Positions 82 to 2,191 of a DNA stretch of 64,000 bases are shown piece after piece. Position 1 is the first letter of the stretch. Each line of letters begins with the position of its first letter. The translations under genes and the position numbers were made by a program. The notes beneath the pieces are model-generated. The model made no database searches. It was not told the DNA's origin and was given only the letters and a program-made list of their open reading frames with translations. This stretch comes from Microcaldota archaeon (GTDB lineage Archaea > Micrarchaeota > Micrarchaeia > Micrarchaeales > CABMGC01), in assembly GCA_021818995.1 (NCBI GenBank), contig JAKASP010000001.1, forward strand, positions 93,381 through 157,380, read 5' to 3'.

Positions 82-183
82 GTTTCTCTACCGCAATTTA
101 AGTTTTAAAGCTATTCAGTTTGGCATAAAGCTTAGGCAAGCCATTCAATTCGACGCATTCCCACACTTTGTTCTTGAGTGCTC

Positions 184-406
184 AGGCTCGCTTGGGCGAG
201 CCTTCGCTATCTTGCAAGCGCATAGAAGCCCAATCACAGCGAGCACGCCTGCCCAATCGACGCCGAAGGCGTCTTGGGGGGCAGGCGTGCGAGCATTCAC
301 TCTCCATACTGATAGTATGGAGTTTCTCTGCTCGCCTGATTATCAAGTCAACTTCTCCACGCTCCGAGCCCTTCGGGCTCGGCCAGAGGAAAGCGTGGAG
401 CTTGAT
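184..406. repeat. Cluster of perfect hairpins (inverted repeats) immediately upstream of the recombinase gene
   Basis: 184-203 AGGCTCGC-ttgg-GCGAGCCT; 243-254/279-290 12-bp perfect GCACGCCTGCCC/GGGCAGGCGTGC with inner GACGCC-gaa-GGCGTC; 302-322 CTCCATACT-gat-AGTATGGAG; 355-363/392-400 CTCCACGCT/AGCGTGGAG enclosing 364-382 CCGAGCCC-ttc-GGGCTCGG, with outer 342-347/401-406 ATCAAG/CTTGAT. Confidence 0.9.
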
Positions 407-416
407 AGATGATGAT

Positions 417-1271
417 ATGGTGTTCGAAACGACGCAATCTCAAGAGGTGTCCATTATGATAAACGAGGACACCAAACTTGATGAGCTTGAGCACGTCAAA
501 AAAGAGTTGCAAGCCCTTCTACCTCTACTTAGCAAATGGAGAGTTGAAGAACTTCAACAGATAATCTCTCACCATTACACGACGAAGTGGAAACACAGAA
601 AGTTTAGGAAATATGGAAGCTTGAGCAAGGCATTCAGCCAAGAGGAACTCGACAAGTTTTTTGCAGTAATCAAAGAAGATCGCTTTAGATTGCTGTATTC
701 CTATCAAGCTTATTGTGGATTGCGAGTAGGCGAAGTTTGTCAGCTCAACGTCAAGGACTTCGATTTTAACATAAGAGAATTGAGAGTAAAGACAGAGAAG
801 GCGCACACACTCGACACTCTGCGAGTGCCCCAATTCCTGTTTGAGCAAACTTTAGAATATATCAGAGAGCACACAATAGAAATCGACAAGGCGCAAGGCT
901 ATTTGTTTTACGTCGATAAGAGGCACAGCCGAACCGACAAGCCATACATAGACTTGAACTACATAAGAAACACATTCCGCTATTACATCTCGCTCGCTGG
1001 CTTGAACGAGGTTTATGATGAGTCAGAGGAGAGCGTGCAGGGCAGGACAAAAAGAAGCCTGCACAGATTGACCACGCACAGCTTGAGGCACTATGCAATA
1101 ACGAAATTCAATCGGGCTGTCGGGGGCGACATTATGCTGACGAAGGCATTCGCTCGGCATAGAGAGATTTCTTCGACGCAAGTTTATGTGCATACATCAA
1201 GAGAGGAGTTATATTCGGCGATTGAACATGCGTTTGCTATAGACAAGCCAATTATGAAGGAGATGGTGTAA
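417..1271 (+). CDS. Tyrosine recombinase / integrase (XerC/D-like)
   Basis: Catalytic-type motifs GLRVGEV (Arg I), HSLRHYAITKF (HxxR), ARHREISSTQVYVH (His and Tyr); longer ORF start at 168 lies in hairpin array so ATG 417 preferred. Confidence 0.88.
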   Translation: MVFETTQSQEVSIMINEDTKLDELEHVKKELQALLPLLSKWRVEELQQIISHHYTTKWKHRKFRKYGSLSKAFSQEELDKFFAVIKEDRFRLLYSYQAYCGLRVGEVCQLNVKDFDFNIRELRVKTEKAHTLDTLRVPQFLFEQTLEYIREHTIEIDKAQGYLFYVDKRHSRTDKPYIDLNYIRNTFRYYISLAGLNEVYDESEESVQGRTKRSLHRLTTHSLRHYAITKFNRAVGGDIMLTKAFARHREISSTQVYVHTSREELYSAIEHAFAIDKPIMKEMV

Positions 1272-1312: not shown

Positions 1313-1729
1313 ATGAAAGCACAAAGAGGAGGAGGCGGAGGATTCATTTTACTTGTGATAATAGTATTAGTGGTGGCTTCCTTATCTCTTGCAAGTTTTC
1401 AAACAAAACAAGTTTTAACTATCTCTCTTGTTAAGAACAATACCTTTTACGCTGGAGGGAATTCATGGAACGTAGAAGTAAGCACTGAAAACGTTACATA
1501 TCTGCAATTTCTTAATTATTCTACAAAACCGCCCTCAATCAATGATGGAACTATTTCAGTATTAATTCAGATACAAAATTCTTCGATGCTTCTGTTCAAT
1601 AAGACCTATTATGTTAGCACATTGAGGGCTTACGAAATACACACATACCAGCCTGTGATTGCGGGTTCTTACCTTAACATCAGCATTCCCTCTTCTGCTT
1701 TCCAAAGGTCGATTCAAATTGGCAAATAA
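1313..1729 (+). CDS. Small secreted / membrane-anchored protein, unknown
   Basis: N-terminal Gly-rich then hydrophobic segment, N-glycosylation-type NxS/T-rich body. Confidence 0.55.
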   Translation: MKAQRGGGGGFILLVIIVLVVASLSLASFQTKQVLTISLVKNNTFYAGGNSWNVEVSTENVTYLQFLNYSTKPPSINDGTISVLIQIQNSSMLLFNKTYYVSTLRAYEIHTYQPVIAGSYLNISIPSSAFQRSIQIGK

Positions 1730-1781: not shown

Positions 1782-2072
1782 ATGCACTCTTTTGTAGGCA
1801 CCGTTCTAATAGAGATAACGAATGTTAGCAGCCAGCTTGTTCTGCCATATGTGCTTTTAGTGGCAATGTTCTTTCTGAATTTGCTATTTCTTGGATTTGC
1901 CTATGATTGGAAATACAATACGTTTAGGAAAGCTCCGTATCCTTCTTTAGAAATTATGTTTGGTGTTTCAATATCGACAATTTACGGTTTTATTTTCCTC
2001 AAATTCGGACTTCTGGGCATAATTGGGCTTATCCCCGCAGGGATGTTTCTGCTTGGGGTTGCTGGGATTTGA
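1782..2072 (+). CDS. Small multi-pass membrane protein, unknown; 3' end overlaps tRNA-Trp
   Basis: Hydrophobic ORF (track start 1659; ATG 1782 more likely); stop codon lies within the T-arm of the tRNA. Confidence 0.45.
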   Translation: MHSFVGTVLIEITNVSSQLVLPYVLLVAMFFLNLLFLGFAYDWKYNTFRKAPYPSLEIMFGVSISTIYGFIFLKFGLLGIIGLIPAGMFLLGVAGI

Positions 2073-2191
2073 ACCCAGACATGCAGGTTACGCCCATCAC
2101 TTGGATCAACGCTCCAAATCTAAGTCATCGCCGAAGCTCTAAATTTTCAACATCTGGAGCCTGCCGCGCTGCCAGGTTACGCCACAACCCC
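2054..2191 (-). tRNA. tRNA-Trp (anticodon CCA) with ~65-nt intron at 37/38 (intron complement 2089-2153)
   Basis: Acceptor GGGGTTG/CAACCCC, T-arm CTGGG-TTCAAAT-CCCAG, anticodon stem GCAGG/CCTGC, loop CTCCAGA after removing intron; mature length 73 nt. Confidence 0.88.

Follow-up and report, generated by a model that had tools for sequence, protein, structure and literature searches.

The window, the whole 64,000-nucleotide stretch of DNA that was analysed, lies in a 0.48-Mb archaeal assembly, and repeat and tRNA comparisons place the hairpin array at its positions 184-416 in a mobile element of Ca. Micrarchaeota that is integrated at the 3′ end of a tRNA gene. The genes and borders of this element are as follows.

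G000:C2:93129-93143, 252 bp before the window start: partner attachment repeat GCTTGGGGTTGCTGG (repeat comparison)
456..1271, + strand: tyrosine recombinase, likely start ATG 456 (PF00589, active-site residues, fold model)
1313..1729, + strand: 138-aa ORF, probable membrane or secreted cargo protein without a Pfam match (ORF list, Pfam)
1782..2072, + strand: 96-aa ORF, probable membrane protein without a Pfam match (ORF list, Pfam)
2051..2065, no strand assigned: attachment repeat GCTTGGGGTTGCTGG, 15 bp, tRNA side (repeat comparison)
2054..2191, − strand: intron-containing target tRNA gene, probably tRNA-Trp (Rfam RF00005, 50.2 bits)

The copy of the attachment repeat at 2051-2065 overlaps the 3′ end of the tRNA gene, and together with the copy at −252 it gives an element of 2,302 bp, whose cargo consists of the two small probable membrane proteins. 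As here, 19 more elements carry a tRNA 3′ end as a direct repeat at each of their borders. The target gene is called Arg by ARAGORN and has an anticodon loop reading CTCCAGA, while the same locus in genome G004 is called tRNA-Trp, which is probably the correct assignment. The elements of orthologous recombinases measure 2,313 bp in G004 (same tRNA), 2,099 bp in G007 (tRNA-Lys) and 6,153 bp in G002 (tRNA-Val), with similar border repeats at tRNA-Trp, -Lys and -Val, respectively, and the tRNA-Trp gene of G007 and G002 has different flanks. A second recombinase, 48% identical, is encoded outside the window in the same genome (L034, G000:C2:30222-30950) and has its own hairpins, GTGCGCTC-TTGG-GAGCGCAC, with a tRNA-Ser downstream on the opposite strand.

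The recombinase matches PF00589 (E = 3.4e-15) and conserves the active-site residues R, K, HxxR, H and Y expected of a catalytic tyrosine recombinase. Its fold model (pLDDT 82) has just two N-terminal helices ahead of the catalytic domain, and the nearest PDB folds are those of Brujita Int (a phage integrase), XerH, XerA and IntI. The protein falls short of both NCBIfam assignments considered, scoring 39.9 bits with the integron integrase model TIGR02249 (cut-off 265), which does not make it IntI-type, and 65.8 bits with the equivalog for archaeal chromosomal XerA (cut-off 220). Nor does it behave as an SSV-type (suicidal) integrase, where attP lies in the gene and the gene is split on integration, as the recombinase gene is intact inside the integrated element. 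Single-protein scans of the genome and viral collections gave no match, and an alignment scan of the genome collection found relatives at 80 loci; the named relatives are mostly Ca. Micrarchaeota.

Ahead of the recombinase gene, two direct repeats, designated L and R, bracket the hairpins.

144..163, + strand: left direct repeat L, a candidate recombinase-type site TTCAATTCGACGCATTCCCA resembling a tRNA 3′ end (repeat pairs in relatives, tRNA similarity)
184..203, no strand assigned: hairpin AGGCTCGC(TTGG)GCGAGCCT (sequence)
238..296, − strand: main hairpin, model R1/R2 family (covariance models, alignments)
302..322, no strand assigned: 9-bp hairpin CTCCATACT(GAT)AGTATGGAG (sequence)
342..406, no strand assigned: compound hairpin ATCAAG/CTTGAT, CTCCACGCT/AGCGTGGAG, CCGAGCCC(TTC)GGGCTCGG (sequence)
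423..442, + strand: right direct repeat R TTCGAAACGACGCAATCTCA (sequence, tRNA similarity)
444..449, + strand: Shine-Dalgarno-like GAGGTG (sequence, kept in relatives)

The initial annotation had the last stem ending about 10 nt before a start codon at ATG 417, and this spacing has to be revised. ATG 417 is in frame and is not conserved among relatives, and the gene probably starts at ATG 456, which is preferred because GAGGTG is found at 444-449 and because clear conservation with the relatives begins there. The array would therefore end about 40 nt before the ribosome site, with the R repeat in between. An inverted repeat, GGTGTCC/GGACACC (446-452/467-473), spans the probable start codon, overlaps the ribosome site and is kept in G004 and G007; it possibly serves translational control.

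L and R have the appearance of recombinase-type sites. Pairs of such repeats are perfect or near-perfect in five relatives, being perfect over 14 nt in G007 and G064, 16 nt in G002 and 17 nt in L089, and their letters differ between elements. Among a pool of 81 tRNA 3′ ends, that of the target tRNA shows the best resemblance to L and R here, tRNA-Trp being closest to R (17/28); the corresponding resemblance is weak in G007 and G002. In family loci L094-L168, repeats resembling a tRNA T-arm are often found at the start of the gene, and in L176 (G064) the stretch from the hairpins to the recombinase gene contains several T-arm-like fragments with similarity to different tRNAs.

All of the perfect, partly nested stem-loops initially described at 184-416 are present, and the stems are genuine and far beyond chance. 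The main hairpin has an outer 12-bp stem (243-254/279-290), an inner 6-bp stem (258-263/267-272) and the loop GAA on the + strand, so that the − strand carries a TTC triloop and a CCCAA/GATT internal loop. In the compound hairpin, ATCAAG at 342-347 pairs with CTTGAT at 401-406, followed inwards by a 9-bp stem (355-363/392-400) and an 8-bp stem (364-371/375-382) closed by a TTC loop; its outer CTCCACGCT/AGCGTGGAG stem is also seen in L163, which belongs to a different recombinase lineage. When folded as DNA, positions 180-420 reach −72.0 kcal/mol compared with −40.3 ± 3.6 for dinucleotide shuffles (z −8.8; 0/200 shuffles as low), and as RNA the + and − strands each give z −7.7, again with no shuffle as low among 200. 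The array has two perfect stems of at least 8 bp with a 3-base loop within about 100 bp, whereas the 61.5 kb at 2500-64000 of the window contain a single one, and none with a stem of 9 bp. The view that this is not a terminator is reasonable. The array also matches no known RNA family in Rfam 15, where a search gave neither a gathering score nor a credible weaker match for it, with the same outcome for the larger region of another element; the only Rfam matches in the window and related loci are tRNAs.

The window recombinase and its five closest sampled relatives group together in a tree of 17 rows with 100/100 support for their clade, the relatives being 80% (L089), 73% (G004), 70% (G007), 64% (G064) and 63% (G002) identical to it, and hairpins lie between L and R in all six. 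The L-R interval folds strongly here (z −9.6) and in G064 (z −5.3), moderately in G007 (z −3.7) and weakly in L089, G004 and G002. The main hairpin of the window aligns with its counterparts in L089, G004 and G007 once these are reverse-complemented, so compared with them it is inverted relative to the recombinase, and the comparison with these three shows five doubly changed pairs, with only two outer pairs broken in the relatives. A scan of 59 genomes finds CCAATCN6GAAN6TTGG at three places, all just upstream of an orthologous recombinase, and reversed controls give none. The contig with the closest recombinase and a hairpin, L089 (JAJYTI010000121.1), is labelled Bacteroidetes and is probably misbinned Micrarchaeota.

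Only the main hairpin is widespread, the remaining stems of the array being conserved at the level of the clade. A covariance model seeded by the main hairpin (238-296, − strand) found matches in 53/148 genomes, with the common form GCCCGCC-YYAAA-GNCRCC-TTC-GGYGNC-GCNC-GGCGGGC. Its refined version (model R2), applied to 295 sampled genomes of the phylum, gave a match at E ≤ 1e-4 in 54, which are confined to two families belonging to a single order. The recombinase family is present in 46 of the 54 genomes with the hairpin and in 51 of the 241 others (Fisher p about 1e-18, relatedness not corrected for), and members of family f7 have the recombinase with no hairpin match. At least 45 of 69 hairpins are within 3.5 kb of a recombinase in the lists used, and about a third have no recombinase on the contig list, several of these being at contig ends. 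The linked copies fall into position classes, 38/45 being downstream of the gene, where 35/38 are on the recombinase strand and mostly at about 200, 320-440 or 700-1,190 bp, and 7/45 upstream at 130-208 bp. It had been considered at the outset that homologous recombinases might lack conserved stems or that the stems might be peculiar to this locus; instead, the stems are conserved and there are many copies. An expectation that strong arrays precede the whole recombinase family was abandoned, since only 7/80 upstream regions fold with z < −4 and the hairpin turned up downstream, and the strict pattern CGCTC-hairpin-CTCGCT was dropped as a box motif as it had too few matches. In G007, loci L036 and L149 have recombinases that are only about 48% alike and a nearly identical hairpin, GCGAGGGCTTC..AAGAAGCCCGAAGCGAGC.

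The covariation that the initial annotation asked about is strong. In an alignment of 49 matches, 98.7% of 691 cells are paired and 14/16 pairs are doubly changed, compared with 5.4 in shuffles (93 cells; 0/500 shuffles, with slid controls near zero), where the pair counts lean towards the model because the alignment was fitted to one seeded with the main hairpin. Two unfitted alignments, A3 and A6, agree, and in a plain alignment of 17 larger regions the main hairpin covaries together with further hairpins. G-U pairs make up 2.2% overall, with only two G-U cells at the three most variable pairs, and the TTC triloop is kept in 30 of 43 hairpins, along with internal loops kept in type, in the presence of 15 different inner stems. 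The scarcity of G-U, the varying orientation and the varying stems with kept loops argue for folded DNA rather than RNA; the DNA would be recognized through its unpaired bases. Counting against this, template switching can keep palindromes perfect and likewise avoids G-U. It is conceivable, if very improbable, that the hairpins have no function and are palindromes in GC-rich non-coding DNA whose perfection is due to template-switch mutation, as the perfect Watson-Crick arms, the inversion of the main hairpin and the variability of the neighboring stems would allow, but such a process does not fit with a triloop and two internal loops that are conserved across two families while the stems change, nor with the tight association with the recombinase and the position classes. 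Because its shape is kept with changing letters beside the same enzyme family in dozens of related genomes, the main hairpin is probably a functional DNA component of these elements, one not previously described. The proposal that the array is a recognition region of the element holds in the sense of a conserved cis part.

What such a part does is a separate question, and one suggestion was a structured 5′ leader or non-coding RNA. Transcription would then begin near L, and the hairpins together with the inverted repeat at 446-452/467-473 would damp translation until excision is needed. By eye, most of the six relatives have TATA-like boxes about 28-31 nt upstream of a CCCAC box that follows L, and TATA-like boxes are also found upstream of L in relatives; moreover, the array precedes the Shine-Dalgarno-like site and its RNA fold is far below that of shuffles. 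A leader is thus possible locally, and in the six-member clade the array may additionally be transcribed as one. As a general role it does not stand, since the hairpin is mostly downstream of the recombinase and is in the opposite orientation here and in G058, G-U is nearly absent, and the − strand folds as well as the + strand. As the account of the array itself, an RNA leader is unlikely. Where a tRNA gene is immediately upstream on the same strand, as for 56/83 members of the recombinase family, expression by read-through from the tRNA is possible.

The other suggestion, a folded single-strand recombination substrate comparable to attC, divides in two, with a folded-DNA role being supported by the covariation and the kept loops and use as the crossover being disfavored because the 15-bp attachment identities are away from the hairpin. 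The hairpins might still form an accessory recombination site, in which L and R are bound by the recombinase and are brought together by the hairpins, as cruciforms or a folded strand, in the manner of attC or a folded phage attP. Their position between L and R throughout the clade, the recombinase family being the most constant partner, and the free stems with kept loops are all in accord with this. On the other hand, the attachment identity and L are some 80-450 bp apart, other elements often have about 1 kb between hairpin and recombinase, no IntI-type model is matched above its cut-off, and the idea that folding of the hairpins brings L and R to a fixed distance was rejected as the folded distance was no closer than in shuffles. 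Overall, an accessory site seems rather unlikely. Integrons, including those of archaea (PMC9668308), resemble the present elements in combining a tyrosine recombinase and cargo genes with an imperfect hairpin of varying stems and kept unpaired bases. They differ in that the elements here do not reach an IntI-level score, mostly have one match to the hairpin model and no cassette array, rather than at least two attC sites within 4 kb between cassettes, and cross over at a tRNA 3′ end, the comparative identity borders being at −252 and 2051 and not at the folded hairpin. The I2 helix is described as integron-specific in PMC7790495.

It is quite possible, although a little short of probable, that the array works in cis, as folded DNA, and provides an origin or processing site for a tRNA-integrating cargo element. 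The conserved core hairpin has an outer GC stem and an inner stem, separated by an internal loop of the YAAA/GCNC type and capped by the triloop TTC, which reads GAA on the opposite strand. In this proposal, it would act as folded DNA, either a single strand or an extruded cruciform, that is read via its unpaired bases. The recombinase would be responsible for integrating the element at the 3′ end of the tRNA gene and probably binds L and R as well; in the six-member clade L overlaps a probable promoter and may serve as an operator. Most likely the hairpin would be used once the element is an excised circle, offering replication proteins of the host or a helper an origin or a site of strand processing. 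These proteins are invoked because the elements examined encode a recombinase and variable cargo and no recognized replication protein, Pfam scans of about 15 element proteins having yielded no Rep. The same economy of genes would suit satellites whose hairpin is a packaging or transfer signal for a helper virus or plasmid, as these small cargo elements are also without recognized capsid genes; yet single-protein and alignment scans of 2.9 million viral contigs, with the patterns used, found no relative of the recombinase, no helper was identified, and a signal of this type is considered quite improbable.

The origin or processing site proposal draws on the wider family, in which 19 tRNA-coupled elements of about 1.8-4.5 kb were delimited. 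Among their cargo are DNA methylases, proteins with nuclease domains of the Mrr and HNH types, cation efflux proteins, the LMW phosphatase family and an ArsR-like regulator. One element encodes ParA, a transposase and a T5orf172/MUG113-type protein, and ParA was rejected as a constant partner as it is in this element only. In tRNA-coupled elements the main hairpin is within a larger multi-hairpin region with TCTCTACATG/CATGTAGAGA repeats that has an origin-like look; no iteron-like repeats of the kind present in other elements are seen in the window element. It was also considered that the hairpins always mark the tRNA-distal attachment end, and this was rejected given that none of the 19 delimited elements has an array at that end. 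In L219-L251 (e.g., L226:3285-3765), the recombinase is followed by a conserved region of about 450 nt with multiple hairpins, which contains CATGTAGAGA repeats as well as a CTACTGCACATCAATATTA box and whose modules look as if exchanged between elements; the one such region tested had no Rfam match.

More broadly, and more tentatively, the hairpin could represent a previously undescribed folded-DNA site that is the regular partner of a large archaeal tRNA-integrating family, whose life cycle would proceed partly via single-stranded DNA in processing, replication or recombination, a counterpart in logic to attC or single-strand origins. An integrating element whose life involves a folded hairpin of single-stranded DNA is the CTX phage, with a folded attP used by XerCD; in that case crossover takes place at the hairpin, unlike in the elements described here. 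Tycheposons of marine cyanobacteria are also small tRNA-targeting cargo elements with a tyrosine recombinase, in different hosts, and they are not known to have a conserved hairpin partner. They are named in PMC10872708. Archaeal tRNA-integrating elements (PMC8371274) share integration at the tRNA 3′ end, a restored tRNA gene, a direct-repeat remnant and their own tyrosine recombinase, and differ in that the gene here is not split by integration. The main text of that review of archaeal tyrosine recombinases (PMC8371274) does not mention DPANN, Micrarchaeota or a hairpin, nor does that of the archaeal integron paper (PMC9668308) mention Micrarchaeota, and no paper joining Micrarchaeota, tyrosine recombinase, tRNA and integrase was found in a search that covered literature outside subscription, which makes the novelty provisional.

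Little is known of gene exchange in the tiny DPANN archaea, and the present analysis defines an abundant class of elements of about 2-6 kb with restriction-modification and metal-efflux cargo. Many of these have in common a conserved DNA structure, and further examples can be found with the covariance model. Should the site work as folded single-stranded DNA, mobility that depends on such DNA would extend beyond bacterial integrons and phages.

It is common for contigs to terminate at or close to these elements (L222, L223 and many others), and an identical hairpin is present near both ends of one 30-kb contig (G108:C3); such ends may reflect repeats or circular forms.
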